Shown piece by piece: positions 8,084 through 54,747 of a stretch of 64,000 nt of DNA. The position numbers and the translations under genes are program-made. The DNA lies in contig CP021371.1 in the NCBI GenBank assembly GCA_002600635.1, forward strand, positions 2,855,001 through 2,919,000, read 5' to 3'. The notes under the pieces were generated by a model. The model saw only the letters and a program-made list of their open reading frames with translations. It did not search any database and was not told the DNA's origin. Each line of letters begins with the position of its first letter. Position 1 is the first letter of the stretch. This DNA is from Rhizobium sp. ACO-34A. GTDB taxonomy: Bacteria; Pseudomonadota; Alphaproteobacteria; Rhizobiales; Rhizobiaceae.

Positions 8084-9286
8084 ATGACTGACGCGCCTTC
8101 AAGGAAACCACCGCTTTCTGGCATCCGGGTGATCGAACTGGCCCGTGTGCTCGCCGGTCCCTGGGCCGGGCAGATGCTGGCGGACATGGGCGCAGACGTC
8201 ATCAAGGTCGAGAACCCCGAAGGCGGCGACGACACCCGCGCCTGGGGGCCGCCCTTCGTCGAGGGCGCGGACGGCGAAAACCTGTCAGCCGCCTACTATC
8301 ATTCGACCAACCGCAACAAGCGCTCCATCGGCGTCGATTTCCGCTCACCCGAGGGCCAGGAAATCGTCCGGCGGCTGGTCGCCACCGCCGATGTGGTGAT
8401 CGAGAACTTCAAGGTCGGCGGGCTGAAGAAATACGGCCTCGACTATGAGAGCCTCAAGGCGATCAATCCGAAGCTCGTCTATTGCTCCATCACCGGCTTC
8501 GGCCAGAACGGCCCCTATGCCGAATTCGCCGGCTACGATTACATCGTGCAGGGCATGTCCGGCTTCATGTCGATCACCGGCGAACCGGACGGCCAGCCGA
8601 TGAAAGCCGGCGTCGCCATCGCCGACATCTTCACCGGCATCTACGCCGTCACGGCGATCCAGTCGGCGCTGATCCACGCCATGAAGACCGGCGAAGGCCA
8701 GATGGTCGACATGGCGCTGCTCGACGTCATGTCCGCGGTGCTTGCCAACCAGAACATGAACTACCTGATTTCCGGAAAATCTCCGGTGCGCCTCGGCAAT
8801 GCCCACCCCAACATCAGCCCTTACGAAGTCGTTTCGACAGCGGATGGCCACCTGATCCTCGCCGTCGGCAATGACGGCCAGTTCAAGCGCCTATGCACCA
8901 TCCTCGGCATCGGAGAGGTCGCCGACGACGAGCGTTTCGCCACCAACAAGGCGCGCGTCGCCCACAAGGCGGAAGTGCGGCGCATCGTTTCGAGCGAAAC
9001 GGCGAAATGGGCAAAGCGCGACCTGCTGACGGCATGCGAAAGCAATGCCGTGCCAGCCGGCCCGATCAATTCCATTGCCGAAATGTTCGACGACCCGCAG
9101 GTCAAGGCGCGCGGCCTGAAGATCGACCTGACCGATGCCGATGGCAACACCATCCCAAGCGTTCGAACACCGATCGTGCTTTCCGAAACGCCGCTGCGTT
9201 ACGAGCGCCCCAGCCCAAGGGTTGGCGAGCATCGGGATGAAATCCTTGCCGAACTGGAAGAGATCGAGAGAAAGGCAGCCCAATGA
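8084..9286 (+). CDS. Class III CoA-transferase (CaiB/BaiF family)
   Basis: 400-residue enzyme that moves CoA between carboxylic acids by a glutamyl/aspartyl-CoA mechanism. The N terminus SGIRVIELARVLAGPWAGQM and motif ADMGADVIKVENPEGGDDTR are hallmarks. The catalytic aspartate is expected in GQMVDMALLDVM (about residue 214). The ATG at 8084 follows the EamA gene at once. The frame is open further upstream, but that part overlaps the EamA gene and encodes no family sequence. The stop overlaps the next start by four bases (ATGA), so the transferase and the thiamine-diphosphate enzyme are probably translationally coupled. The pairing recalls frc/oxc of oxalate metabolism, but the partner looks more like acetolactate synthase. 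The substrate is open. Confidence 0.9.
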   Translation: MTDAPSRKPPLSGIRVIELARVLAGPWAGQMLADMGADVIKVENPEGGDDTRAWGPPFVEGADGENLSAAYYHSTNRNKRSIGVDFRSPEGQEIVRRLVATADVVIENFKVGGLKKYGLDYESLKAINPKLVYCSITGFGQNGPYAEFAGYDYIVQGMSGFMSITGEPDGQPMKAGVAIADIFTGIYAVTAIQSALIHAMKTGEGQMVDMALLDVMSAVLANQNMNYLISGKSPVRLGNAHPNISPYEVVSTADGHLILAVGNDGQFKRLCTILGIGEVADDERFATNKARVAHKAEVRRIVSSETAKWAKRDLLTACESNAVPAGPINSIAEMFDDPQVKARGLKIDLTDADGNTIPSVRTPIVLSETPLRYERPSPRVGEHRDEILAELEEIERKAAQ

Positions 9287-10935
9287 AAAAGACCGGTGGT
9301 CAACTGATCGTCGATGCACTCAAGGCAAACGGCGTGAAGCGCGTTTCCTGCGTGCCGGGCGAAAGCTATCTCGCGGTGCTCGACGCGCTCTATGAAAGCG
9401 GCATCGAAACCATCGTGTGCCGACAGGAAGGTGGCGCGGCGATGATGGCCGACACCTGGGGCCGCCTAACCGGCGAACCCGGCATCTGCATGGTCACCCG
9501 CGGCCCGGGTGCCACCAATGCGTCCGCCGGCCTGCATGTCGCCAGGCAGGATTCCATCCCGATGATCCTGTTCATCGGCCAGGTCCAGCGCGACGCCCGC
9601 GAGCGCGAGGCCTTTCAGGAGGTCGAATACCGCCGCGCCTTTACCGAATTTGCCAAATGGGTCGGCGAGATCGACGACGCCCGGCGCATTCCCGAATTCG
9701 TCACCCGCGCCTTTGCCATCGCCACCTCCGGCCGCCCCGGCCCGGTCGTCTTGACGCTGCCCGAGGACATGCTAGTCGATGAGGTCGATGCACCCGATGC
9801 AAAGCCCTATATGCCGGTCGAGGCCCATCCCGGCCTAGCGCAGATCGAGGCTTTCGGCGCTTTGCTGGCAAAGGCGAAGCGCCCGATGCTGATCCTCGGC
9901 GGCACGCGCTGGGACGATGAATCCGTCGCGGGCATCCGCGCCTTCGCCGAACGCTTCAAGCTGCCTGTCGGTTGCTCCTTCCGCCGCCAGATGCTGTTCG
10001 ATCACCTGCATGAAAGCTATGCCGGCGATGTCGGAATCGGCATCAACCCGGCGCTCGCGAAGGAGATCAAGGAAAGCGACCTCGTTATCCTGCTCGGCGG
10101 ACGTTTCTCCGAAATGCCATCATCGAGCTATACCCTGCTCGGCATCCCCTACCCGTCCCAGACGCTGGTGCATGTGCATCCCGATCCATCCGAACTCGGC
10201 CGCGTCTACCGCGCCGATCTCGCGATCTGCGCAACGCCGAAAGATTTCGTCGCAGCGCTCGGCAAACTCTCTCCCGCCGCCGAGCCGGAATGGGCAACCC
10301 GCACCGCCGCCATGCATGCCGGTTACCTCGCATGGTCCACCCCGCCGAAGACGGGTCCGGGCAAGCTGCACATGGGTCCGATCATGGAATGGCTCGAGGC
10401 CAACACGCCGAAGGACGCGATCTTCACCAACGGCGCCGGCAACTACGCCACCTGGCTGCATCGTTTCCACCGGTTTCAGGCCTTCAACACACAGGCGGCA
10501 CCCGCCTCGGGATCGATGGGCTACGGCCTGCCCGCCGCTGTTGCCGCCAAGCAGCTCTTTCCGAAGCGCGAAGTCATCTGCTTTGCCGGCGATGGCTGCT
10601 TCATGATGCATGGACAGGAATTCGCGACCGCCATCCGCTATAACCTGCCGATCATCGTGCTTCTGGTGAACAACGGCATCTACGGCACGATCCGCATGCA
10701 TCAGGAACGGGAATATCCCGGCCGCGTCAGCGCCACCGATCTGACCAATCCTGATTTCGCCGCCCTCGCCCGCGCCTATGGCGGCTATGGCGAGACGGTC
10801 GAGGACACAGAACAGTTCGCCGCCGCCTTCGAACGCGCCCGCGCCTCCGGCAGGCCCGCGATCCTCGACATCAAGCTCGATCCGGAAGCGATCACCCCGA
10901 CGAGAACGCTGACCCAGATCCGCGAGAAAGCCTGA
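9283..10935 (+). CDS. Thiamine-diphosphate-dependent enzyme, acetolactate-synthase-like
   Basis: 550-residue enzyme with the three-domain PYR / central / PP fold. The activating glutamate is Glu49 in CRQEGGAAMMADTWGR. The cofactor motif is GDG (436-438) followed after the usual spacing by NN (463-464), for Mg-ThDP binding. The VTRGPGATNASAGLHVA stretch is typical of acetolactate synthase and related decarboxylases. No flavin-specific signature stands out. Coupling to a class III CoA-transferase suggests it decarboxylates or carboligates a 2-oxo acid or acyl-CoA. I would not call it IlvB (no small subunit nearby) or oxalyl-CoA decarboxylase without a phylogeny. Confidence 0.88.
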   Translation: MKKTGGQLIVDALKANGVKRVSCVPGESYLAVLDALYESGIETIVCRQEGGAAMMADTWGRLTGEPGICMVTRGPGATNASAGLHVARQDSIPMILFIGQVQRDAREREAFQEVEYRRAFTEFAKWVGEIDDARRIPEFVTRAFAIATSGRPGPVVLTLPEDMLVDEVDAPDAKPYMPVEAHPGLAQIEAFGALLAKAKRPMLILGGTRWDDESVAGIRAFAERFKLPVGCSFRRQMLFDHLHESYAGDVGIGINPALAKEIKESDLVILLGGRFSEMPSSSYTLLGIPYPSQTLVHVHPDPSELGRVYRADLAICATPKDFVAALGKLSPAAEPEWATRTAAMHAGYLAWSTPPKTGPGKLHMGPIMEWLEANTPKDAIFTNGAGNYATWLHRFHRFQAFNTQAAPASGSMGYGLPAAVAAKQLFPKREVICFAGDGCFMMHGQEFATAIRYNLPIIVLLVNNGIYGTIRMHQEREYPGRVSATDLTNPDFAALARAYGGYGETVEDTEQFAAAFERARASGRPAILDIKLDPEAITPTRTLTQIREKA

Positions 10936-11049: not shown

Positions 11050-11352
11050 TCCTCAAGCACGGACTCCAGCAACCCGGCCGATAGCGCAGCAGGGCTCCTT
11101 CATCGGCATCGAGGACGCCAAACAGTTCTTCGGCGGCTTTGTCGACTTGCTGGAGCCGGGCGATTTTCAGGTCACGACAGCGTTCGGCGATGCGCAGCAC
11201 GCCGCGTCCTCCGGCACATTGCGGCACACCGTTCGCAAGACCGGCAAGGCCTTCGCCATCGACTGGGCTTTGATCTGCACCGTCAAAGACGGACACATCA
11301 CGCCTATCACTTCCATGAGGATAGCGAAGCGCTGGTTTATGCAATGCGCTGA
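11050..11352 (+). pseudogene. NTF2-like (SnoaL-type) protein remnant, truncated and frameshifted
   Basis: Frame +2 encodes [20 protein letters not shown] and KTGKAFAIDWALICTVKDGH, which match the second half of small NTF2-like proteins. At about 11300 the expected ending moves into frame +1, giving YHFHEDSEALVYAMR and a stop at 11350-11352. The first 40-50 residues of a normal NTF2-like domain are not recognisable in any frame. The gene is therefore broken at both ends. The remaining 10936-11440 sequence holds nothing else that I can see. Confidence 0.65.
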
Positions 11353-11440
11353 GGGCGGCGTCGGTTGTTTCGAGACGAGAGCCGCAGCGCGCAGAAAAAT
11401 TGCGATCCGAGGAGGCGTATCGCTTCGATGAAACTCCTCG

Positions 11441-12241
11441 TTACGCTGTCAGAAAGCGCAATGCTCTCTGAATCTCGAAGAAATCCTGCGACGTGAACAC
11501 GACCGTTCTGGAGCCATTGGTTTGAGCACCTGGGTACCACGAAGCCCGCCATGCGTCCGTCGGGTTCGAAAACTCGATGGCGATTTCGAAGGGGCCTTCC
11601 AATGGCGGAACAGATGCCGGCTGCATCGCGGACAATGCGGCGGCGACCCCTTCCCGGATGGCCGAACAGGCGCGGCTCGGCGCGATCGAGAGAGAGGCGC
11701 GTCCAAAGCCCTCGATTGTCGAGACCGTGCGCAAGCCCGGCGCCAGTTGACGTGCGTCCTCGCATATTTCGGCATCACCGGACAGGAAAACGGAAGGAAC
11801 GCCGTAGCGCGCGGCGCAGAGAGCGTTGAACGTGAACTCGGAAGCTACCTCGCCGTTCAAAAGAAGCCGCGATATGCGCAGGGTTGTCGTATGGGCCAGC
11901 GGATTGGCTTCCGACCCGGCCTTGGCGTGATAACCCGTATAGATGGCTGCGGCAAAGTCCGGGCCGAGGCCGAACATCATTCCGTCGGGGTGGCCAGACC
12001 ATCCCCGCATGATCCGCGCATAGTCCGGCAAACGATCCAGGATAAGGTTCCGGCCGCTGTCATGGGCATCCTTGATAACGACTTCGGTCGCGCCGGCTGC
12101 ACGGGCACCCTCGCAGGCGGCAACGACTTCGGCAGTCATCAGGCTTCGGAACTCTGCATAGTCGGCATGGGTTCGCTCCGCTTCGTCCCAATGGGCAATC
12201 CCGGCGGTCCCCTCGATGTCGGCAGACAGAAAGATCTTCAC
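11441..12241 (-). CDS. M55-family D-aminopeptidase (DppA-like)
   Basis: 266-residue zinc aminopeptidase. It begins VKIFLSADIEGTAG, placing Asp8 and Glu10 at the positions of the metal ligands of Bacillus subtilis DppA. His60 (DAHDSGRN), His105 (TGYHAK) and Glu135 (NGEVASEF) complete the expected set, with His117 as probable catalytic histidine. M55 enzymes remove N-terminal D-residues such as D-Ala from short peptides and form a decameric ring. The GTG at 12241 is chosen because AAGGAG lies 8-9 bases upstream and the start overlaps the stop of the P1 peptidase gene (GTGA). It is the last gene of a six-gene minus-strand operon and probably supplies D-amino acids to the class IV transaminase encoded first. 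Confidence 0.9.
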   Translation of the reverse strand: MKIFLSADIEGTAGIAHWDEAERTHADYAEFRSLMTAEVVAACEGARAAGATEVVIKDAHDSGRNLILDRLPDYARIMRGWSGHPDGMMFGLGPDFAAAIYTGYHAKAGSEANPLAHTTTLRISRLLLNGEVASEFTFNALCAARYGVPSVFLSGDAEICEDARQLAPGLRTVSTIEGFGRASLSIAPSRACSAIREGVAAALSAMQPASVPPLEGPFEIAIEFSNPTDAWRASWYPGAQTNGSRTVVFTSQDFFEIQRALRFLTA

Positions 12242-13275
12242 AATGCGTTCTCCTTGGCCCAGTCCGCCAGCGACGGATAATGCTTTCCTGTCCGGCCGGT
12301 CTCCCCGGGTGCGGCACACAGGGCATTCAGGACAGCCTCCTGCGTTGCTTCGACGGCAGCTCGGAACGGCAGATCGATCAGATTTTCGTCAATGCACGTC
12401 ATCGACTGAAAGGCTGGTGCATCGTGTGCGATCTGGTCCGCAGTGGTGAACCCTACAACGATGTCTCCGGAACCATGGCCCCAGAAGGCGCCAAGTCTTG
12501 CAAGTCCCGCTCCTGCGCGACGGGCGACACGTTGCAGCTGGCGATCGCCAAGGGGGAGATCCGTAGCCAGAACGACGATCACCGATCCCTTTTCCGAGCG
12601 GCTCACACTGCCCGGATCGGGACGACGCCCATCAGGCAGGACAAGATCTCCGGCCCTTCCGAAATTTGCCAGCACCAATGCACCAAGCGTGAAATCCCTG
12701 GCGGCAATATGCATGCGTCGCGAGGCACTGCCTATCCCGGCCTTGAAGCCAAAGGCCGTCATGCCCCGACCCGCTCCGACAGACCCTTGTTCAACGCGGC
12801 CGGAGGCGGCGTCGGCCAAGGCAGCAAACGCGTCCTCCGGCGACACCGCAAGCGCCTGAATATCGTTGATCGTACCGTCATTACATTCGCAAACCACGGG
12901 ATTGACCGTCGAAGTCTCGCGACCGATTGCGGGATTATCGGCAATGGCGCGGCGGATCAGGGCCTCGGTGCATGCAGCGACACCGAATGTGTTCGTAAGC
13001 AGGATCGGGGTTTCGATGGTTCCCAATTCCGCGATCTGCACAAGTCCCGCGGATTTGCCAAAGCCGTTGATCACCTCGACCGCAGCCCGAACCTTCTGGC
13101 GAAAGAGATCGCCTGCATGCGGGATGACGGCCGTTACCCCGGTCGCCAGCCCGCCATCCGAAAGTGTCCGATGCCCTACCCTCACACCGGGCACGTCCGT
13201 AATCGCGTTGTGTTCGCCCGGCGGGAGACTGTTCCTGCCTTCCGCCCACAAGCCCAGCTGGCGCGCTGTCGTCAT
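12238..13275 (-). CDS. P1-family aminopeptidase (DmpA / L-aminopeptidase D-esterase type)
   Basis: 345-residue N-terminal-nucleophile hydrolase. Family features are the N-terminal NAITDVPGVRVGH, the central VVCECNDGTIND and SVGAGRGMTAFGFKAGIG. A Gly230-Ser231 bond in SEKGSVIVVLATDLP is the expected autoproteolysis site that frees the catalytic serine. DmpA of Ochrobactrum hydrolyses peptides with N-terminal L-residues and D-Ala amides/esters; other relatives cut beta-peptides or nylon oligomers. A clear AAGGAAGG site precedes the ATG. Fourteen bases separate it from the ABC ATPase gene upstream, and it overlaps the M55 gene downstream. Two intracellular peptidases of complementary stereochemistry in one import operon point to D-containing peptides. 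Confidence 0.9.
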   Translation of the reverse strand: MTTARQLGLWAEGRNSLPPGEHNAITDVPGVRVGHRTLSDGGLATGVTAVIPHAGDLFRQKVRAAVEVINGFGKSAGLVQIAELGTIETPILLTNTFGVAACTEALIRRAIADNPAIGRETSTVNPVVCECNDGTINDIQALAVSPEDAFAALADAASGRVEQGSVGAGRGMTAFGFKAGIGSASRRMHIAARDFTLGALVLANFGRAGDLVLPDGRRPDPGSVSRSEKGSVIVVLATDLPLGDRQLQRVARRAGAGLARLGAFWGHGSGDIVVGFTTADQIAHDAPAFQSMTCIDENLIDLPFRAAVEATQEAVLNALCAAPGETGRTGKHYPSLADWAKENAL

Positions 13276-13289
13276 GTGACTTCCTTCCT

Positions 13290-14033
13290 TTATAGCCGCC
13301 CGGCCTTCTTCAGGCTGCGCAGGAAAGCCTGGGTACGCTCACCCTGCGGGTTTCCGAAAATTTCCGATGGCGGCCCCTGCTCATAGACCTTGCCGGACTG
13401 GAGAAAGCAGATCCGGTTGGCCACCTCGCGGGCAAAGCCCATCTCATGGGTGGCCAGAAGCATTGTCATGCCTCGTTCCGCAAGGTCGCGCACGATGTCC
13501 AGCACTTCCGACACCAGCTCCGGGTCGAGGGCGGATGTGATCTCGTCGAGAAGAAGGACCATCGGGTTCATCATCAGCGCCCTGACGATTGCGACCCGTT
13601 GTTGCTGTCCTCCCGATAAACGGTCCGGATAATCCCCTGACTTGTGCGCCAGGCCGATGCGGCTAAGAAAGGCCATCGCCTTTTCCTCGGCTTCGCGCCG
13701 CGGCATTCCCAGCACCTTCGTCGGAGCCAGTATGGTGTTCTCGAGTACCGTCATATGCGGAAACAGGTTGTACCCCTGAAATACGATCCCGATGTCGCGC
13801 CGCAGGCGATCGAGGTCGACGCCCGGTCCGGTGATCCGATCGCCATGGATGCGGATCTCGCCCGAAGAGATCTCCTCGAGGCGGTTCATGCAACGCAGGA
13901 GAGTGGATTTTCCACAGCCGGAAGGGCCGATCAGGCAGATCACCTCGTGCTCCTCGACACTGAGGGAGAGATCCGAGATGACCTCGAATGTCCCGTAGTG
14001 CTTGGTCACATGGTCGATTTCCAGAATTGCCAT
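13290..14033 (-). CDS. Polar-amino-acid ABC importer, ATP-binding protein
   Basis: 247-residue ATPase of the PAAT family (GlnQ/HisP type). Walker A is GPSGCGKST (about 36-44), followed by a Q-loop in IVFQGYNLFPHM. The signature is LSGGQQQR, Walker B is VLLLDEITSALDPE and the switch histidine is in ATHEMGFA. It energises uptake through the permease encoded 5 bases upstream. Its place in the operon suggests import of D-amino acids or small D-peptides, but sequence alone gives only the polar-amino-acid class. Confidence 0.93.
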   Translation of the reverse strand: MAILEIDHVTKHYGTFEVISDLSLSVEEHEVICLIGPSGCGKSTLLRCMNRLEEISSGEIRIHGDRITGPGVDLDRLRRDIGIVFQGYNLFPHMTVLENTILAPTKVLGMPRREAEEKAMAFLSRIGLAHKSGDYPDRLSGGQQQRVAIVRALMMNPMVLLLDEITSALDPELVSEVLDIVRDLAERGMTMLLATHEMGFAREVANRICFLQSGKVYEQGPPSEIFGNPQGERTQAFLRSLKKAGRL

Positions 14034-14038
14034 GAGTT

Positions 14039-15154
14039 TCAGCCCCCTGCCCGCATACGGCGGCGATCGCGGTCAATCAATCTGTCGACCAGTCGTGCCT
14101 GCGGGATTGTAATAACGATGAAGAGGATCGCGACGGTGGTGACCGCGGAGAGGTTGAAGTTGTTCGCTGCAATGATCTTCGACTGGTTGAACGCATCGAT
14201 CGTGCCGATGATCGCCACCAGCGCAGTGTCCTTCTGAAGGCTGATGCAATTGTTCATCAAAGGCGGAATGATGTTCCTGATCGCGAGGGGAACCACTACA
14301 TAGCGCATGGTCTTGGCGTGGCTGAGGCCCAGGGAGCGGGCGGCCGCGACCTGACTGTGATGTATGCCCTCGATACCCGCGCGATATACTTCCGACGTAT
14401 AGGCGCCATAGGTCAGGGTCAGGGCTATGATGGCGTAGGATGTCGAGGAAAGGTCCGAGAGTATCGGCAGATCCGTCAGCGGCAGGCCGAAGCCGATCAG
14501 ATAGATCGTGATGATTGCCGGCAGACCTCGGAACAGATCGCCATAGGCGATTGCCAGAAAGCGAAGCGGACGACCTGCCTCGCCAGGCAGTGTGCGGGCG
14601 ATGGCCACCAACAGGGACCAGATCAGGATCAGGACCGCCGAGACGGCGAATATGGTGACATTCGTGCCGAAGGCCCAGATCACTTTGCCGGCAGAACTCT
14701 GAATGAGTGCGAGATCGAAGAAAGTACGGCTAACGGCGGCGTCGTTGACCGCCATGAACCAGGCCATCGCTGTGACAATCAACAGAGCGCCTGTCCAGGA
14801 GAGTGCTCTCCACGATCCAAGAGAGGCTTCAGCACCCAATGCACGCGCAGCATGAAGGTCGGCGCTGCGCGAGGCCATGATGGACCGCGCGAAAGCCCGG
14901 CCTGCCGTCAGCAGCACCAGCGCTGAGGCAATCGCCACGACGACACCCGGGATCGCGGCAGTGATCCGGGATACGCCCTGCGTCACCGCGTAGCTGCCCA
15001 GATGCTGTGCCGAGACGGCGACAATGACGAAGGTAGCGGCGGCGGCAAGGAACGTTAGCCCGGAGCGGGTGCGATAGGTCCGTGCAGCGCTCCGGGCACG
15101 CTGTGTCGCGTGCCCGGCTTCGCTTTTCGTCTCGGAGACGAGAGTTTCGTTCAT
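14039..15154 (-). CDS. Polar-amino-acid ABC importer, permease
   Basis: 371-residue inner-membrane protein. The C-terminal two thirds is the HisM/GlnP-type domain with the EAA loop EGIHHSQVAAARSLGLSHA that contacts the ATPase. The N-terminal third adds two or three extra helices not found in the shortest members. I place the start at 15154 (MNETLVSE), four bases after the binding-protein stop; the codon at 15181 would overlap the preceding gene. No second permease gene is present, so the channel is likely a homodimer. Confidence 0.9.
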   Translation of the reverse strand: MNETLVSETKSEAGHATQRARSAARTYRTRSGLTFLAAAATFVIVAVSAQHLGSYAVTQGVSRITAAIPGVVVAIASALVLLTAGRAFARSIMASRSADLHAARALGAEASLGSWRALSWTGALLIVTAMAWFMAVNDAAVSRTFFDLALIQSSAGKVIWAFGTNVTIFAVSAVLILIWSLLVAIARTLPGEAGRPLRFLAIAYGDLFRGLPAIITIYLIGFGLPLTDLPILSDLSSTSYAIIALTLTYGAYTSEVYRAGIEGIHHSQVAAARSLGLSHAKTMRYVVVPLAIRNIIPPLMNNCISLQKDTALVAIIGTIDAFNQSKIIAANNFNLSAVTTVAILFIVITIPQARLVDRLIDRDRRRMRAGG

Positions 15155-15158
15155 CGGA

Positions 15159-16004
15159 TCAGTTTTTCCAGACCGGAACACCTTCAGGCGTAAGGCCGCC
15201 CCAGGCGGGAGCGAGATATTCGGTTTCGAGGGCCTTCAACGTTCCGTCGGCATCCATATCAGCGATGATCTTGTCGATGACAGGCTTTTCTACAGATCCC
15301 TTCGGATAGATACCTGCCGTATCCCGTCCGCTCGGATATTGGCCGACGACCTTGAGTTTTCCACCGGAATTGGAGACCTGGCCCAGCACGACGGAGAGGT
15401 CCGTCATGACGACATCGACGTTGCCGGCCGCAAGTGCGGTGAACATGGCGCCCGTATCGTCGAACACCGACAGCTTCGTCTCAGGCAAGGTGTCCTGAGC
15501 CCATTGCACCATGATCGTGCCGGCCTGGGTGCCGAGCTTTGCGGTCTTCACGCCTGCCTCATCGACAGCGGCATCACTGCGGGTCGCAAGACCGAAGGCT
15601 CCGTGAGCATAGGGGGTCGAGAAGTCGACGACCTTCTTGCGCGGTTCAGTGACCGAGATGAGCGCAAGCGCGATGTCGAAATCCTTGTTCTGTCCTGCAA
15701 CGATGGAATCGAAGGAAGCGTTTTTCAGCACGACCTTGTCGATGCCCAGACGGTAGGCAATATTCACCGCCATGCAGAATTCCCGGCCGCTGGTGATGCT
15801 CTCCGGCGTGTCACCGTTGAATTCGCCGACGGCGGGCAGATTGATGATGACGGTGAACTGGCCGGGAACTGCGGTCTCGGTCTTTTCCGTCCCCTGCTTG
15901 CCGAAAAGCTTGCAGTCGCCATAGCCCTCGCTTGCGAGAGCAGGTGCCCCGAATGCCGTCAGTGCCCCGAGCGCGATGCCCATGAATTTGAATTTGTGTT
16001 TCAT
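15159..16004 (-). CDS. Polar-amino-acid ABC importer, periplasmic binding protein (SBP_bac_3)
   Basis: 281-residue secreted protein. The signal peptide is FKFMGIALGALTAFGAPALA, with cleavage expected just after ALA-S. The body has the family-3 features FDIALALISVTEPRKKVVDF and TQAGTIMVQWAQD. A GAGGAAG ribosome site precedes the ATG. Position 2 in the operon, after the transaminase gene, is unusual for a binding protein and ties the enzyme tightly to uptake. The ligand is inferred to be a D-amino acid or related peptide. Confidence 0.9.
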   Translation of the reverse strand: MKHKFKFMGIALGALTAFGAPALASEGYGDCKLFGKQGTEKTETAVPGQFTVIINLPAVGEFNGDTPESITSGREFCMAVNIAYRLGIDKVVLKNASFDSIVAGQNKDFDIALALISVTEPRKKVVDFSTPYAHGAFGLATRSDAAVDEAGVKTAKLGTQAGTIMVQWAQDTLPETKLSVFDDTGAMFTALAAGNVDVVMTDLSVVLGQVSNSGGKLKVVGQYPSGRDTAGIYPKGSVEKPVIDKIIADMDADGTLKALETEYLAPAWGGLTPEGVPVWKN

Positions 16005-16047
16005 GCGTTCTTCCTCTGTTGGTTTTCTCGTTGTTGTTCTGTGAAGT

Positions 16048-16911
16048 TTAGTGGGATGTTGCTTTGGTCACTCCTGCTGCTTCGAGATAATAGGATTGCA
16101 ACAGGCGCGTCAGCGGCCCCGGTTTTCCGTCACCGATCACCACGTCTCCTATCCGTATGACCGGAGTGACCAGGCTGGATGCGGATGTCTGGAAGGCTTC
16201 GGCCGCGCTTTCGGCTTCGGCTTGCGTGAAACTGCGCTCTTCGAAAGTCAGTCCATGGCGATCGCACAACCTCAAAAGGGCTTGCCGTGTGCACCCCGGC
16301 AGGATTATCCGGGAATTGCCGCGCGTCAGGATCCGGTTGTCTTCGGTGACGATGTAGGCGGTGGAAGAGGCCCCCTCGGTGATGTGACCCTCCTGCGTCA
16401 GCCAGACATCGCCGAATCCCGCGGCGCGGGCATCTCGCTTTGCCAGCACCTGCCCGAGAAGCATGACCGTCTTGATGTCGCGACGTGCCCAGCGGGGATC
16501 CGGAACGAGAGCCACGGCGATCCCTTCTTCTTGCGCTTTCGTGCCGAGAAGCCGCTTTGCCTGAGTAAAGCCGACGAGTGTCGTTTGCAGTCCGTCGGGA
16601 TAGAGAAAGTCGCGATCAGCTTCGCCACGCGTGGCCTGAAGGTAGACGGTGCCTTCGGTCAGGCCGTTCTTCGTGATCAGGTCTTGCTGCAGAAGCTCGA
16701 TTTGCTCGAGAGAAGCCGGCATGGGGATTGCGAGTTCAGCCAGCGATCTTTTGAAACGCGCGAGATGCAGGTCGTTATCGATCAGCCTGCCGCCAATGAC
16801 CGCCGTCACTTCGTATACGCCATCCCCGAAAAGAAATCCGCGATCGAACAGGCTGATATGAGCCTGATCCTCCTGCACGAACTGACCTGCGCAATAAACA
16901 ATCCTGCTCAA
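16048..16911 (-). CDS. dat: Class IV aminotransferase, probable D-amino-acid transaminase
   Basis: 287-residue PLP enzyme of fold type IV. The pyridoxal lysine is Lys147 in RRDIKTVMLLGQ, with Tyr33 in GDGVYEV and the phosphate/N1 glutamate in HITEGASSTAYI. D-amino-acid transaminases move the amino group from D-Ala, D-Glu and others to 2-oxoglutarate. The substrate carboxylate site of the Bacillus enzyme (Arg98, His100) aligns with Arg100-Asp-Phe102 here, so the histidine is replaced. It is the first gene of the operon, with the divergent LysR gene 178 bases away. A branched-chain or aminodeoxychorismate activity is the alternative; the D-peptidase neighbours favour Dat. Confidence 0.82.
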   Translation of the reverse strand: MSRIVYCAGQFVQEDQAHISLFDRGFLFGDGVYEVTAVIGGRLIDNDLHLARFKRSLAELAIPMPASLEQIELLQQDLITKNGLTEGTVYLQATRGEADRDFLYPDGLQTTLVGFTQAKRLLGTKAQEEGIAVALVPDPRWARRDIKTVMLLGQVLAKRDARAAGFGDVWLTQEGHITEGASSTAYIVTEDNRILTRGNSRIILPGCTRQALLRLCDRHGLTFEERSFTQAEAESAAEAFQTSASSLVTPVIRIGDVVIGDGKPGPLTRLLQSYYLEAAGVTKATSH

Positions 16912-16999
16912 TTCCCGACTCCGGTCCTACAACTCTTTGGCTGGCGGCGACTTTGGAGCGCGATGGCAGGCTTGGCCAATTCGGTTTAAACAGAAAATC

Positions 17000-17014
17000 A
17001 TGCAAAAAATGCAT
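17000..17014. promoter_or_regulatory. LysR-type binding site between dat and the lysR gene
   Basis: ATGCA AAAAA TGCAT is a perfect 5-bp inverted repeat. It contains the T-N11-A pattern (17001-17013) bound by LysR regulators and lies in the 178-bp divergent promoter region, 76 bases before the LysR start. Confidence 0.6.
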
Positions 17015-17089
17015 AACGATGCTAAATCAAAAAGTTATGGAATGTTGCCGGCGTTGAAAACTGTGCTTCGCGGCCTGGAGTGATATGAA

Positions 17090-18055
17090 ATGGAATTGAA
17101 ATGGTTGGAGGATTTCGTGACGCTTGCGGATACTTCCAGTTTCTCGCGATCGGCGGAGTTGCGAAACGTCACACAGCCGGCATTCAGCCGGCGAATCAAG
17201 CAGTTGGAAGTCTGGCTCGGGACGCCGCTGATCAATCGCGGAACGATGCCGGCGGAGCTGACACCTGCTGGTCGCAATTTCCTGCCGCTGGCGCGCGACA
17301 CTATTCGGGCCCTCTACGCGGCGCAGGAAGCCTTGCGGCCAACTTCCGACGCAGGCATGGCACGGTTTGCCGCGCTTCACACGCTGACCGTGACGTTTGT
17401 GCCGGGATGGTTGCAACTCCTGGAACAGGAGATGCCCGATATCCGCATCAGTCTCATTCCCGATCGGGGTGGAATAGAGGCAAACCTTGCGACTCTGGTC
17501 GATGGCGAAGCGGATTTTTTCCTGACCTACGCGCATCCGCGCGTGCCGTTTCATCTGGATCGGGAACGCTTCGACTATCTGTCCGTGGGTAGTGACCGCC
17601 TCGTTCCCGTTGTTGCTCCCCGGGTCAGGCTGCAGCGCGACCGTTGGGCGCCGGGCGCGGGTCTCCTTGACCGCGCCGTGAACGAGAGGTTTCTCGTGCC
17701 CTATCTCAGCTATGGCTTCAGTTCGTTCTTTGGTGTTGCACTTGGTCGTCTCTTTGCAGAGCGTCCGCAATTTCTCCGACGGCAGGTTCACGAAAACGCG
17801 ATCAGCGCAGGCTTGAAGACAGTTGCGCTGACGGGAGCCGGTTTATGCTGGCTGCCGCAGAGTCTCATTCAGGCGGAGCTGGATGCAGGTCTTCTTGTCA
17901 ACGCATCATGTGCGACAGACTGGACGATGGATCTGGAGATACGCCTCTACCGTCATCTGGGGAGCCAGAGCAAACTCGTGAAGAACTTCTGGAGGAGCGC
18001 CGAAGCGCTCTTGAACACCCAGCTACCCTTGCCAGCAGGACCTAAAGGCATCTGA
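17090..18055 (+). CDS. LysR-family transcriptional regulator
   Basis: 321-residue regulator. The N-terminal winged helix starts MELKWLEDFVTLADTSSFSR and has the recognition helix NVTQPAFSRRIKQLE, followed by a linker helix and a periplasmic-binding-protein-like effector domain (about 90-300). The N terminus resembles the HypT/YjiE branch as well as amino-acid regulators. It is transcribed divergently from the dat operon across a 178-bp gap containing a T-N11-A palindrome, the usual arrangement for a LysR activator and its target. The effector is probably an amino acid handled by the operon. Confidence 0.9.
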   Translation: MELKWLEDFVTLADTSSFSRSAELRNVTQPAFSRRIKQLEVWLGTPLINRGTMPAELTPAGRNFLPLARDTIRALYAAQEALRPTSDAGMARFAALHTLTVTFVPGWLQLLEQEMPDIRISLIPDRGGIEANLATLVDGEADFFLTYAHPRVPFHLDRERFDYLSVGSDRLVPVVAPRVRLQRDRWAPGAGLLDRAVNERFLVPYLSYGFSSFFGVALGRLFAERPQFLRRQVHENAISAGLKTVALTGAGLCWLPQSLIQAELDAGLLVNASCATDWTMDLEIRLYRHLGSQSKLVKNFWRSAEALLNTQLPLPAGPKGI

Positions 18056-18237: not shown

Positions 18238-19737
18238 TCACAGCTCCGCTAGCGCCTCCCGGCGCAATACCTGTTTCATCACTTTCCCGGAACCGGTCCG
18301 GGGCAAGCTGGTAACGAAGCGGAATTCCTTCGGTACCTTGTAGCGGGCGATCAGCGACTGGCAGTGCCTTGCGAGTTCGTCATGGTCCGGCTGTCGATCC
18401 GGGGCCATGACCACATAGGCCCGGCCGACCTCTCCCCAGCGTTCGTCGGGAATGCCGATGACGGCCACCTCGCGGATGCCCGGGTGTTCCGCAAGTGCGG
18501 CCTCTATCTCGACCGGATAGACATTCTCGCCGCCCGAGATGAACATGTCCTTGCGGCGGTCGACGATCGAGATGAAGCCGTCCTCATCGCGGCGTCCGAC
18601 ATCGCCGGTACGGATCCAGCCATCCACCGTGAAGCTGCGTCCCCGCTCTTCCGGCCGGTTCCAGTAACCGGTGACGACGTTCAGGCCAAAGACAAGGATC
18701 TCCCCCGGAGAGCCATCGGGCACCTCGCGGTCGTCTTCGTCCACCAGCCGGATGGCCGTCAGCGGCCCGGCGAGGCCAACAGCGCCCGCCTTGCTGCGCA
18801 GGAGATCTCGCGACAGGGGCATGCCGAGCGTGGTTCCGGTTTCGGTCATGCCGTAGCCGTCGACCATGCGAACGCCGTGATCGAGCCACCAGCGGATATG
18901 GGCCGGCGGGTTCGGTGCGCCGCCGGTGAAGAGCGCCTTGAGCTTCGTCCAGTTTTCAGGAGCGAAGTTCGATGCATGGCGCAGGGCCTCCGCCATCTGG
19001 GGCACGCAGAAATAGTGCGTGATGCCGAAATCGGGATTGCCCAGTCGCTCGTTGGTCTGTTCGGGGTCGAAGCCCGGCGAAACGATGAAAGTGCCGCCGC
19101 GCAGCATCGGCGGCCAGATCTGCGTGACGATGCCGATGACATGAAACATCGGGCTGTCGCAAAGGAAGACACAACCAGTATCGACCTCGCCAAGGATGTT
19201 GAAGTTCACCGCGGTCGCCAGCAGAAACTGCGAGGTGAGCAGCGCACCTTTCGGCACGCCTGACGTGCCCGACGTGTAGAGAATGATGCAGGTGTCATGG
19301 CCGGAATGCGGCGTGCATCGCGGCCCCGGTTCGGCAACCGCGACAGTGGAAGCAAAATCGCGAAAACTCTTCGATCGGCAACCGGGCGGCAGCTCTGGAA
19401 TGTCCTCGTCGGTGTAGAGGATCGACGGGGTGCAGTCCTTCAGCAACAGGCCGAGTTCCTGCTGCGACAGTCGCCAGTTGAGCGGCACGAAGATCGCGCC
19501 CAGCCGCATCAGGGCCTGCTGCAGGATGACCTGATGCACGTTGTTGCGGGCAAGGATGGCCACCCGGTCGCCCTTCGCGATGCCTTCGGCGCGCAGCACC
19601 GCCACGGCGCGCTGAATGTCGGTATCGAGTTCCCTGTAGCTCCAGCTTCTGTTGCCGGTGAGGTCGACGCAGGCCGCCGCCTCCGGCCGGAGGCGCGCAT
19701 GAAGCGCCACCGGGTCAGGTGAAATGAAGTCCAGCAT
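18238..19737 (-). CDS. Acyl-CoA synthetase, probable hydroxycinnamate (feruloyl/p-coumaroyl) CoA ligase
   Basis: 499-residue adenylate-forming enzyme. The P-loop is YTSGTSGVPKG, with the A5 motif DGYGMTETGTTLG, A7 GWIRTGDVG, A8 VDRRKDMFISGGENVYP and C-terminal lysine PRTGSGKVMK. It forms an acyl-AMP and then the CoA thioester. The start at 19737 (MLDFISPDPVALHAR) has an excellent AGGAGG site. The frame is open to 19923, but those extra residues are arginine/serine-rich and unlike the family. It is the third gene of the operon after the aldehyde dehydrogenase and the hydratase-lyase, 34 bases from the latter, which sets the substrate as a hydroxycinnamic acid. The ligase family alone would not specify it. 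Confidence 0.88.
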   Translation of the reverse strand: MLDFISPDPVALHARLRPEAAACVDLTGNRSWSYRELDTDIQRAVAVLRAEGIAKGDRVAILARNNVHQVILQQALMRLGAIFVPLNWRLSQQELGLLLKDCTPSILYTDEDIPELPPGCRSKSFRDFASTVAVAEPGPRCTPHSGHDTCIILYTSGTSGVPKGALLTSQFLLATAVNFNILGEVDTGCVFLCDSPMFHVIGIVTQIWPPMLRGGTFIVSPGFDPEQTNERLGNPDFGITHYFCVPQMAEALRHASNFAPENWTKLKALFTGGAPNPPAHIRWWLDHGVRMVDGYGMTETGTTLGMPLSRDLLRSKAGAVGLAGPLTAIRLVDEDDREVPDGSPGEILVFGLNVVTGYWNRPEERGRSFTVDGWIRTGDVGRRDEDGFISIVDRRKDMFISGGENVYPVEIEAALAEHPGIREVAVIGIPDERWGEVGRAYVVMAPDRQPDHDELARHCQSLIARYKVPKEFRFVTSLPRTGSGKVMKQVLRREALAEL

Positions 19738-19771
19738 TCTTTCCTCCTCCCTTTCTCCTCCTCCCCGGAGA

Positions 19772-20602
19772 TCAGCGAACCTTGCGGTCCTTGTCATAGG
19801 CTCCGAGGCCCGGCTTGTAGGACTTTTCGTCGATGAACTGACGGATGCCTTCCTTGCGTCCGTTATTGTCGAAGGAGTTGGCAGCCTCCTGGGCGCGGAC
19901 GAGATAGTCCTCCGCCTCGTCATAAGTCATCACGCCGACGCGGCGGATGGCATCCTTGGTGGCCTTGAGCGCAACCGGGTTCTTCGCGCGCAGGATCTTC
20001 GCCACATCGGTGACCCGATCCTTGAGTTCGGCAAGCGGCAGGCTTTCGTTGACGAGGCCCCAGTCAGCAGCCGTCTTGCCGTCGATCGGCTCACCCAGCA
20101 AGGCATGATACATGGCCTTGCGGAAGGGCAGAAGTTCGACGGCGACCTTGGTCGCTCCACCGCCCGGCAGGATGCCCCAGTTGATTTCCGAAAGGCCGAA
20201 CTTCGCTTCATCCGCGGCGAACGCTAGATCGCAGGCAAACAGCGGGCCGTAGCCGCCGCCGAAGCACCAGCCGTTGACCATGGCGATGGTCGGCTTCTGG
20301 TACCAGCGGAGCCGGCGCCACCAGCCGTAGCTCTCGCGCTGCGATCTGCGGACCCCCTTGAGGCCTTCGCTTTCGGTTTCCCGGAAATATTCCTTGAGGT
20401 CCATGCCTGCAGTCCAGGCGGCGCCCTCCCCGGTCAGCACCAGCACGCCGACATCGGAACGGAACTCGAGCTCGTCGAGTACCTCCATCATGGCCCGGTT
20501 GAGCGTAGGGCTCATCGCATTGCGTTTATCAGGACGGTTGAAGCGTACCCATGCGATGCCGTCGATGACATCAAATGCGACAGTATCGGTATCGTTGGCC
20601 AT
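19772..20602 (-). CDS. p-Hydroxycinnamoyl-CoA hydratase/lyase (HCHL)
   Basis: 276-residue crotonase-fold enzyme that hydrates feruloyl-, caffeoyl- or p-coumaroyl-CoA and cleaves the product to the aromatic aldehyde and acetyl-CoA. It matches Pseudomonas HCHL over its length: KRNAMSPTLNR, AWTAGMDLKEYFRE, YQKPTIAMVNGWCFGGG, FGLSEINWGI and a C terminus DEKSYKPGLGAYDK. The catalytic acid is Glu139 in SEINWG; the phenol-binding tyrosine lies in EDYLVRA or the MDLKEYF segment. AAGGAGGG precedes the ATG. With aldehyde dehydrogenase and CoA ligase it forms the CoA-dependent non-beta-oxidative route. Confidence 0.93.
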   Translation of the reverse strand: MANDTDTVAFDVIDGIAWVRFNRPDKRNAMSPTLNRAMMEVLDELEFRSDVGVLVLTGEGAAWTAGMDLKEYFRETESEGLKGVRRSQRESYGWWRRLRWYQKPTIAMVNGWCFGGGYGPLFACDLAFAADEAKFGLSEINWGILPGGGATKVAVELLPFRKAMYHALLGEPIDGKTAADWGLVNESLPLAELKDRVTDVAKILRAKNPVALKATKDAIRRVGVMTYDEAEDYLVRAQEAANSFDNNGRKEGIRQFIDEKSYKPGLGAYDKDRKVR

Positions 20603-53256: not shown

Positions 53257-54747
53257 ATGACCAAGATCAATAAGGCCGCCTGCGTCGGCGGCGGCGTCAT
53301 CGGCGGAGCATGGGCAGCCCGCTTCCTGCTCGCGGGCATCGACGTCTCGATGTACGACCCGCATCCGGAAGCGACCCGCATCGTCGGCGAAGTGCTGGCC
53401 AATGCCGAGCGTGCCTATGGCATGCTGACCATGGCCCCGCTGCCGCCGCGTGGCACGCTTTCCTTCGCATCAAGCATTGAGGAAGCCGTGCAAGGCGCTG
53501 ACTGGATTCAGGAAAGCGTGCCCGAGCGGCTGGACCTGAAGCGCGGTGTCCTGACCCAGATCGACGCGGCTGCAAACCCGTCCGCCCTGATCGGCTCGTC
53601 CACCTCCGGCCTGATGCCGACCGATCTCCAGCGCGATATGAAGCATCCGGAACGCTTCTTCGTCGCCCATCCCTACAACCCCGTCTACCTGCTGCCGCTC
53701 GTCGAACTCGTCGGCGGCCAGAAGACGTCGAAGGAAACCATCGCCAGAGCCAAGGAACTCGCCGCCACAATCGGCATGGAAGGCGTGGTCATCGCCAAGG
53801 AAATCGAGGCCTTCGTCGGCGACCGCCTGCTGGAAGCCCTGTGGCGCGAAGCGCTCTGGCTGATCAAGGACGACATCTGCGATACCGAAACCCTCGACAA
53901 TGTGATCCGCTATTCGTTCGGCATGCGCTGGGCGCAGATGGGTCTGTTCGAGACCTATCGCATCGCCGGTGGCGAAGCCGGCATGCGCCACTTCCTCGCC
54001 CAGTTCGGCCCCTGTCTCCAATGGCCCTGGACCAAGTTCACCGACGTCGTCGATCTCGACGACGCGCTGGTCGACAAGATCGGCAGCCAGTCGGATGCGC
54101 AATCCGGCGCCCATGGCATCCGCGAACTCGAACGCATCCGCGACGAAAACCTCGTCGGCATCATGCAGGCATTGAAAGGTGGAAACGGCGGCAAGGGCTG
54201 GGGCGCCGGCAAGCTGCTGGCCGATTTCGAAAGCCGCCTCTGGGCCAATGCCGGCAAGCTCTCGGTCGATACCAGCTCCGCAAAGCCGCTCCGCCTTCTC
54301 GACGTCAAGGTCAACCCGTCCTGGGCTGACTACAACGGCCACATGACCGAATTCCGCTACCTGCAGGTCTTCGGTGACACCTCCGACGCCCTCCTCCGCC
54401 TGATCGGCGTGGACGACGCCTATGTGAAGGACGGCCATAGCTATTACACGGTCGAGACCCACATTCGCCATCTCGGCGAAGCCAAGGTCAACGAGGCGCT
54501 CTACTCCACCTGCCAGGTTCTCTCTGTGGACGAGAAGCGCATCCACGTCTTCCACACGATCCACCGCACTGCGGACGACGAGGCAATCGCAACCGCCGAG
54601 CAGATGCTGCTGCATGTCGATGCCAAGGCCGGCAAGGCGGCGCCTGCTCCGGAAAGCGTGCTTTCGAAGGTGAAGGCAATCGCCGAGGTCCATGCCGCCC
54701 TCCCGAAGCCGGAAGCGGCGGGACGGCATGTGGGACAGAAGAAATGA
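53257..54747 (+). CDS. lcdH: L-carnitine dehydrogenase fused to betainyl-CoA thioesterase
   Basis: 496 residues. Residues 1-320 are a 3-hydroxyacyl-CoA-dehydrogenase-type enzyme: Rossmann site GGGVIGGAWAARF, catalytic His138 and Glu150 in FVAHPYNPVYLLPLVELV. This part oxidises L-carnitine to 3-dehydrocarnitine. Residues about 345-470 form a hotdog thioesterase with NPSWADYNGHMTEFRYLQVF, expected to hydrolyse betainyl-CoA to glycine betaine and CoA. Sinorhizobium has the same fusion; in Pseudomonas the two parts are separate genes. The order (cleavage enzyme, then the fusion) gives the whole carnitine-to-betaine path in two genes. Confidence 0.93.
   Translation: MTKINKAACVGGGVIGGAWAARFLLAGIDVSMYDPHPEATRIVGEVLANAERAYGMLTMAPLPPRGTLSFASSIEEAVQGADWIQESVPERLDLKRGVLTQIDAAANPSALIGSSTSGLMPTDLQRDMKHPERFFVAHPYNPVYLLPLVELVGGQKTSKETIARAKELAATIGMEGVVIAKEIEAFVGDRLLEALWREALWLIKDDICDTETLDNVIRYSFGMRWAQMGLFETYRIAGGEAGMRHFLAQFGPCLQWPWTKFTDVVDLDDALVDKIGSQSDAQSGAHGIRELERIRDENLVGIMQALKGGNGGKGWGAGKLLADFESRLWANAGKLSVDTSSAKPLRLLDVKVNPSWADYNGHMTEFRYLQVFGDTSDALLRLIGVDDAYVKDGHSYYTVETHIRHLGEAKVNEALYSTCQVLSVDEKRIHVFHTIHRTADDEAIATAEQMLLHVDAKAGKAAPAPESVLSKVKAIAEVHAALPKPEAAGRHVGQKK

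Follow-up and report, generated by a model that had tools for sequence, protein, structure and literature searches.

A LysR-linked operon of Rhizobium sp. ACO-34A, probably for the catabolism of small peptides with D-amino acids, and the modular arrangements of its relatives

Introduction

D-amino acids that occur in peptides, as in cell-wall debris, antibiotics and aged protein, are resistant to ordinary peptidases, and to our knowledge the recovery of such peptides by soil and rhizosphere bacteria is poorly mapped. A locus of Rhizobium sp. ACO-34A (genome of 6.28 Mb in five contigs) raises the question of whether they are handled by a dedicated set of genes and, if so, how fixed this set is. 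The locus lies in a stretch of 64,000 nucleotides (GenBank assembly GCA_002600635.1, contig CP021371.1, positions 2,855,001 to 2,919,000), hereafter the window. It consists of a six-gene operon encoding a transaminase, a three-part ATP-binding cassette (ABC) importer and two peptidases, and of a divergent gene for a LysR-type regulator (positions 11441 to 18055 of the window). An initial annotation had described it as a probable operon for the scavenging of D-amino acids or D-peptides, acting as one dedicated unit.

The analysis presented here suggests that the locus is probably a module under LysR control for the catabolism of small peptides, or of amides resembling them, that contain D-amino acids. 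In this soil bacterium, related to root-nodule bacteria, the operon most likely imports and dismantles small D-peptides for food, and many relatives keep the core and the switch and exchange the importer and some of the peptidases. A unit dedicated to D-peptides or D-amino acids, as initially proposed, is supported by the data; the six-gene set as a fixed unit is not.

Organisation of the cluster

The operon and the divergent regulator gene that had been claimed are real: the open reading frames (ORFs) stand where they had been placed, and their Pfam domains match. All six operon genes are on the minus strand. The first (16048-16911; Aminotran_4) encodes a class IV, pyridoxal-phosphate-dependent D-amino-acid transaminase and starts with TTG in the window vs ATG in close relatives. 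It is followed by the genes of the importer, namely a periplasmic solute-binding protein (SBP) of family 3 and PAAT type (15159-16004; SBP_bac_3), a single PAAT-type ABC permease with a long N-terminal extension (14039-15154; BPD_transp_1), whose ORF covers 14039-15181 with a likely ATG near 15154, and the ABC ATPase (13290-14033; ABC_tran). The window thus holds the family-3 SBP, the PAAT permease and the ATPase that define a PAAT amino-acid ABC importer, and the Rhizobium daejeonense copy of the permease, 93% identical, is annotated 'amino acid ABC transporter permease'. The last two genes encode a P1/S58 (DmpA-type) N-terminal-nucleophile aminopeptidase (12238-13275; Peptidase_S58, 364.7 bits) and an M55 (DppA-type) D-aminopeptidase (11441-12241; Peptidase_M55, 283.4 bits against a cut-off of 25), the latter starting at a GTG that overlaps the P1 stop codon (...ATTGTGA...) and not at the ORF-finder start, 12319. 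The regulator, which belongs to a cluster-specific LysR subfamily, is encoded on the plus strand (17090-18055; HTH_1/LysR_substrate).

Among the best 80 of 359 P1 matches, the closest named loci are those of R. daejeonense (97% P1 identity) and Ciceribacter sichuanensis (94%). In a second R. daejeonense strain all seven genes are carried on a plasmid, where they are annotated as D-amino-acid transaminase, ABC binding protein, amino acid ABC permease, ATPase, P1, M55 and LysR. The gene order is kept in relatives and the arrangement is therefore not due to chance; however, the six-gene set is not fixed, but one of several arrangements.

These arrangements were compared in a locus survey (ARRANGEMENTS) based on a scan of genome contigs, in which the best 80 of the 359 P1 loci were retained, the parts were scored by tblastn on all 80 and the domains were identified on representative loci. 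The identity floors were 45% for M55, 50% for the transaminase and 40% for the S12 D-aminopeptidase (DAP), weaker copies such as the M55 of 31-32% in L059, L064 and L075 being uncounted. The importer of the window (type A: family-3 SBP, PAAT permease and ATPase) is found in 22 of the 80 loci and an importer of the Dpp type (type B: Amidohydro_3, family-5 SBP and DppB) in 28, and the two were found together in none of the 80. The partner genes of P1 are the D-transaminase (49 loci), LysR (50), M55 (42) and DAP (10). In the case of DAP, the S12 gene of a Shinella locus (L030) scores 698 bits with the D-aminopeptidase model PRK13128 (cut-off 443) and 499 bits with the Ochrobactrum anthropi enzyme 1ei5, and the other nine loci were counted by their similarity to this gene.

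M55 and the family-5 importer occur together in 23 of the 28 type B loci. A complete example, annotated as such, is plasmid pShin-01 of Shinella sp. HZN7, which carries D-aminopeptidase, D-amino-acid transaminase, P1, M55, LysR (reverse), amidohydrolase, ABC binding protein, two permeases and two ATPases. On pSymA of Sinorhizobium meliloti 1021, tblastn matches reveal transaminase, P1, LysR (reverse), amidohydrolase and Dpp importer; M55 was not found in this cluster at the identity floor. A quick P1 tree, in which many forks are open, requires at least three changes between the importer labels A and B. The usual core is P1, D-transaminase and LysR, whereas the importer and the second peptidase vary; the term 'one dedicated unit' is thus supported for the handling of D-peptides and D-amino acids and does not extend to these two parts. 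Other peptidase families known for D-substrates recur near the cluster in relatives. As for the type B amidohydrolase (Amidohydro_3), its identification as a D-aminoacylase is not supported, no NCBIfam model being over its cut-off and the best solved relatives being uncharacterised metal hydrolases.

Transaminase, peptidases and binding protein

Residue counts were made on ORFs from a simple gene caller, which cover P1 in 67, M55 in 40 and the transaminase in 45 of the 80 loci. The transaminase scores 347.1 bits with the D-amino-acid transaminase subfamily NF005209/PRK06680, over the curated cut-off of 320, and among solved structures it is closest to D-alanine aminotransferases. Arg100, Lys147 and Glu179 are kept in all 47 rows (the window and 46 ORFs from 45 loci, L052 contributing a second copy) and in 30 of 30 family homologues; Arg100 corresponds to the carboxylate-binding R98 of the Bacillus enzyme, and the Lys and Glu are the catalytic residues. 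A grouping with branched-chain enzymes, which the initial annotation had named as the outcome that would speak against it, is rejected by the conserved arginine and by the model scores, the best branched-chain model reaching 139.9 bits; on these grounds the enzyme appears to be placed correctly.

All 47 rows have Phe two residues past Arg100, at the position of the partner His100. This R-x-F motif was considered as a mark of a cluster-specific transaminase and rejected, since among the 30 homologues Phe and His are found in 15 each; it is therefore a common variant. Two Phe-bearing homologue loci are linked to M19 (L118) or S12 (L121), and the other enzyme of the genome over the NF005209 cut-off, at C1:2239254, has His at the Phe position.

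The P1 peptidase has the Gly230-Ser231 autoprocessing site that had been claimed, and Gly-Ser is present in all 68 rows (the window and 67 loci). Autoprocessing at Gly-Ser in P1 enzymes yields an N-terminal Ser nucleophile. Among solved relatives, the best alignments were obtained with 2drh, a Pyrococcus P1 protein, and with DmpA (1b65). The assignment of M55 ligands to DppA positions is also borne out: the equivalents of D8, E10, H60, H104, H115 and E133, which, on the DppA numbering assumed here, we take to be five metal ligands and the catalytic His, show no substitution in any of 44 rows, which comprise the window gene, its two further copies in the own genome and 41 ORFs from 40 loci.

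The place of M55 directly after P1 is taken in some type A loci by an amidase, PF01425 (L060, 7942-9360, with the same sequence cluster in L056 and L072). A Sinirhodobacter locus (L043) has two M55 genes, the second of them located with an amine oxidase beyond LysR (1-2257). In the SBP, Cys31 and Cys77 are invariant in 51 of 51 aligned rows and likely form a disulfide.

The LysR regulator and its putative operator

A common motif, TATGC-N7-GCAT-N17-GAATTGGCCAA, was found on alignment of the gaps between lysR and the transaminase gene (22 rows including the window) and of those between lysR and the amidohydrolase gene (26 rows). In the window this putative LysR operator occupies 16972-17015 on the minus strand, 60 bases before the transaminase start. 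It is 44 bases long overall, and its first half is an inverted repeat of the T-N11-A form, which is the form of LysR sites, followed by a second element.

The sequence was scored over 20 positions with a threshold of at least 15. All 22 type A loci reach it (21 at 16 or more), with the site before the transaminase in 21 and before the SBP in one. Among type B loci it precedes the amidohydrolase in 28 of 28 (26 at 16 or more; 15 at 20/20) and the transaminase in 17 of 20, and it is present in eight of eight loci that have a transaminase and neither importer. All 50 loci of types A and B thus have a site before the importer operon. The rest of the 80 loci (1,152,216 bases in all, scored on both strands) contains 14 sites at 15 and two at 17, both of the latter in the gaps between DAP and P1 (L017 and L019). 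A reversed-pattern control gave six matches at 15 and none higher; scores of 15 are therefore near background.

Among the matches listed for 180 family genomes, every site with no or one mismatch is at the cluster (G000, G319, G325, G345, G395, G404 and G417); 115 of the 180 have some site at up to three mismatches, a level dominated by background. In ten genomes chosen for holding the P1 cluster, the cluster LysR is the best match to the window LysR in all ten, and the next best is at most 36% identical. No such LysR match exists for the second P1 cluster of G289, which lies next to M55 on contig C4. A consensus scan for promoters and terminators gave promoters no more numerous than in shuffled sequences. 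As far as can be read from sequence, one LysR subfamily and a shared operator-like sequence tie the A and B arrangements together.

Distribution and distant loci

M55 was found in 20 and P1 (E ≤1e-60, identity 44-100%) in 38 of the 180 genomes of the family sample, and P1 adjoins M55 in 12 of the 20 that bear M55. As a class-wide rule, the linkage of M55 and P1 was rejected on a class sample, in which it holds in 2 of 10 genomes. The linkage of DAP and P1 was likewise discarded as a family-wide rule: DAP is over its cut-off in 20 of 180 genomes and, by eye, none has it within 10 kb of P1 on one contig. In the window's own genome DAP is on another contig (C3). Relatives of P1 occur in 130 plasmid records, of which 64 are from Sinorhizobium. 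These sparse genome counts and the plasmid copies therefore indicate an accessory trait, partly plasmid-borne. The plasmids with a P1 relative (E ≤1e-60) also include 20 from Klebsiella and 10 from Pantoea.

P1 at 44-49% identity is found in nine family genomes. Seven further stretches were fetched, four of which (L165, L166, L167 and L169, from G400, G310, G320 and G289, respectively) hold a P1 46-49% identical to that of the window. They represent a distant sister cluster: all four contain P1, D-transaminase, a LysR at 40-44% identity and a peptidase of family S12 (PF00144), a count biased because the loci were picked for a weak operator or S12 match near P1. The S12 peptidases of the two loci scanned score 59.9 and 58.6 bits with PRK13128, far under its cut-off of 443. 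The Dpp importer and an M19 dipeptidase are each in view in three of the four, and operator-related sites, at 16-17/20, in three. In another of the seven stretches, L170, P1 is immediately preceded on its own strand by a gene resembling those for saccharopine dehydrogenase (11283-12416).

With regard to the surroundings of the operon in the window, LysR is adjoined by genes for an acyl-CoA synthetase and a p-hydroxycinnamoyl-CoA hydratase/lyase (18238-20602; 459.9 bits for the latter, cut-off 276), a pair that probably serves hydroxycinnamate (ferulate/coumarate) degradation and is unrelated to the operon. Downstream of M55, on the opposite strand, there is a thiamine-pyrophosphate enzyme of the PRK08199 subfamily (9283-10935; 918 bits, cut-off 539).

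Proposed function and alternatives

As we infer it from the genes, LysR with its inducer, probably a D-amino acid or a D-peptide, would act on the 44-base operator that lies between the lysR and transaminase genes, and would thereby turn the operon on. The substrate would be imported by the ABC importer, in its family-3/PAAT version here and in its Dpp/family-5 version in other loci. As P1 and M55 have no export signal (judged by eye), they should act in the cytoplasm, where they would remove N-terminal residues, the D-residues being handled by M55 or, in relatives, by the S12 D-aminopeptidase. The transaminase would then pass the amino group from the released D-amino acid on to a 2-oxo acid, and both nitrogen and carbon would flow to central metabolism. 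Peptidoglycan fragments are one possible source of the substrate.

Several observations weigh against this function. The ligand of the family-3 binding protein appears to be the weakest link: its pocket is of the amino-acid type (Arg122 in 49 of 51 rows; Asp202 in 38 and Glu in six more) and the proteins nearest to it in fold are binders of single amino acids or opine-like compounds, therefore the PAAT importer may carry an amino acid or a derivative and not a peptide. None of the Pseudomonas proteins DppA1-5 bound dipeptides with D-amino acids (PMC12728205), so that a Dpp-type importer alone would not imply the use of D-peptides. The transaminase scores 223.6 bits with the strict D-amino-acid transaminase equivalog TIGR01121 (cut-off 277) and is therefore placed in the subfamily only, and M55, with 145.2 bits to the DppA equivalog NF058634 (cut-off 430), is a member of its family that is not filed as DppA. 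DmpA-type enzymes are also active on L- and beta-substrates, and membership of a family known for D-substrates is no proof of D-specific activity.

The linkage also has its exceptions. Neither importer is found in 30 of the 80 P1 loci, and 15 are without any importer, transaminase, M55, LysR or DAP at the identity floors. Among the further stretches, L168 has M19, the Dpp importer and S12, with P1 and transaminase absent from view; L170 is a type B locus without transaminase; and in L171 the parts in view are limited to P1 (61%), transaminase and LysR. In the class sample of 240 genomes M55 is found in 11, ten of them over the cut-off, which gives the two P1-adjoining cases in ten mentioned above. 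Finally, the operator scores are descriptive because the consensus was derived from these same loci, and the window contains a second sequence (54241-54284) that scores 16/20 and is taken as background. When the own genome was searched with a 42-base pattern at up to three mismatches, the operator had none and this second sequence three, and the reversed control gave one match. The constant position and spacing of the operator-like sequence are a stronger point than its scores.

The nature of the SBP leaves room for an alternative in which free D-amino acids or an amino-acid derivative (amide, opine-like or N-substituted) enter through the PAAT version, P1, M55 and the transaminase then release and transaminate the amino acid, and peptides are taken up only by the Dpp versions. 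This is a real possibility, although we hold it tentatively. If free amino acids were imported, the two peptidases of the operon would be pointless; moreover, the same LysR subfamily and operator precede a Dpp peptide importer in 28 type B loci (LysR in 26, operator in 28). A general use of L-peptides, beta-peptides or carnosine-like peptides, with P1 as an L-/beta-aminopeptidase and the 'D' in the names of M55 and the transaminase misleading, is unlikely. P1-family enzymes do have L- and beta-aminopeptidase activity and have reportedly figured in work on carnosine synthesis, but unrelated families with D-substrates recur with P1: M55, the PRK13128 S12 D-aminopeptidase, the D-amino-acid transaminase and M19, a family with L-D dipeptidases among its bacterial members.

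It is very unlikely that the cluster serves to recycle peptides of the cell's own wall during peptidoglycan turnover rather than to feed on outside D-peptides. D-residues and peptide importers would fit such a role, and the Rhizobiales are described as being without AmpG (PMC9790009); nevertheless, the same paper reports that muropeptides go via YejBEF-YepA in Agrobacterium and that YepA is widespread in Rhizobiales. Besides, the cluster is accessory, as seen from the family counts above, and has plasmid copies that include those of S. meliloti pSymA and the R. daejeonense plasmid, a distribution that suits the scavenging of outside material, as does an inducible LysR design.

The reading preferred here is the catabolism of small peptides with D-amino acids. 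A wider version of it seems rather doubtful at present: an old, modular D-peptide regulon of Alphaproteobacteria, with one LysR subfamily and 44-base operator, and a core of P1 and D-transaminase that takes up either a PAAT or a Dpp importer and, just as interchangeably, D-peptidases from M55, S12 DAP, another S12 or M19. Its boldest element is a PAAT family-3 importer, in the window, that carries D-peptides. If this were true, D-peptides would be an unusual substrate class for PAAT-type family-3 importers.

Implications and comparison with known systems

The shared regulator and operator would provide a signature by which genomes can be searched for D-peptide use, and S. meliloti 1021, whose pSymA carries the Dpp version of the cluster lacking M55, makes it testable in a model symbiont. 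The exchange of importers also leads to a prediction: if one inducer switches on both a PAAT and a Dpp importer, their ligands should be of one kind. Among the matches listed in open-licence full-text literature, which leaves subscription papers mostly outside and is thus weak evidence of novelty, no title described a shared operon of P1 or DAP with M55, transaminase, importer and LysR, and tentative SMa gene numbers of S. meliloti gave no matches.

The closest known systems share parts of the present one. The dppABCDE operon of Bacillus subtilis encodes the M55 D-aminopeptidase DppA and a dipeptide ABC importer. The likeness lies in an M55 enzyme encoded with an ABC importer, and the M55 of the window keeps all six DppA positions. 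DppA is described as D-stereospecific and self-compartmentalizing (PMC2651629). In contrast with dpp, M55 is here one of two peptidases and is accompanied by a D-amino-acid transaminase and a LysR gene, the importer of the window is of the PAAT type, and in the present clusters M55 can be absent or replaced by S12. In ddpXABCDF of Escherichia coli (D-Ala-D-Ala dipeptidase and D-Ala-D-Ala transporter), the gene of a D-dipeptide peptidase is likewise found with an ABC importer in one operon, which is induced on nitrogen depletion (PMC8743547). However, the peptidase is another one, control is by NtrC/RpoN instead of LysR, and there is neither transaminase nor P1.

Ochrobactrum anthropi has the same two peptidase families in DmpA (P1) and DAP (S12 D-aminopeptidase). 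Both are known as single enzymes, whereas in Shinella (L030) an S12 gene of the DAP equivalog precedes transaminase and P1, and similar genes are found in nine further loci. On the side of the importer, the Agrobacterium SocA protein, a family-3 binding protein for deoxyfructosyl-glutamine/glucopine, is also among the closest known systems. The dpp and ddp systems combine a D-specific peptidase with a family-5 SBP importer; that of the window is of family 3, and for this reason the operon is better described as working like dpp and ddp than as being one of them.

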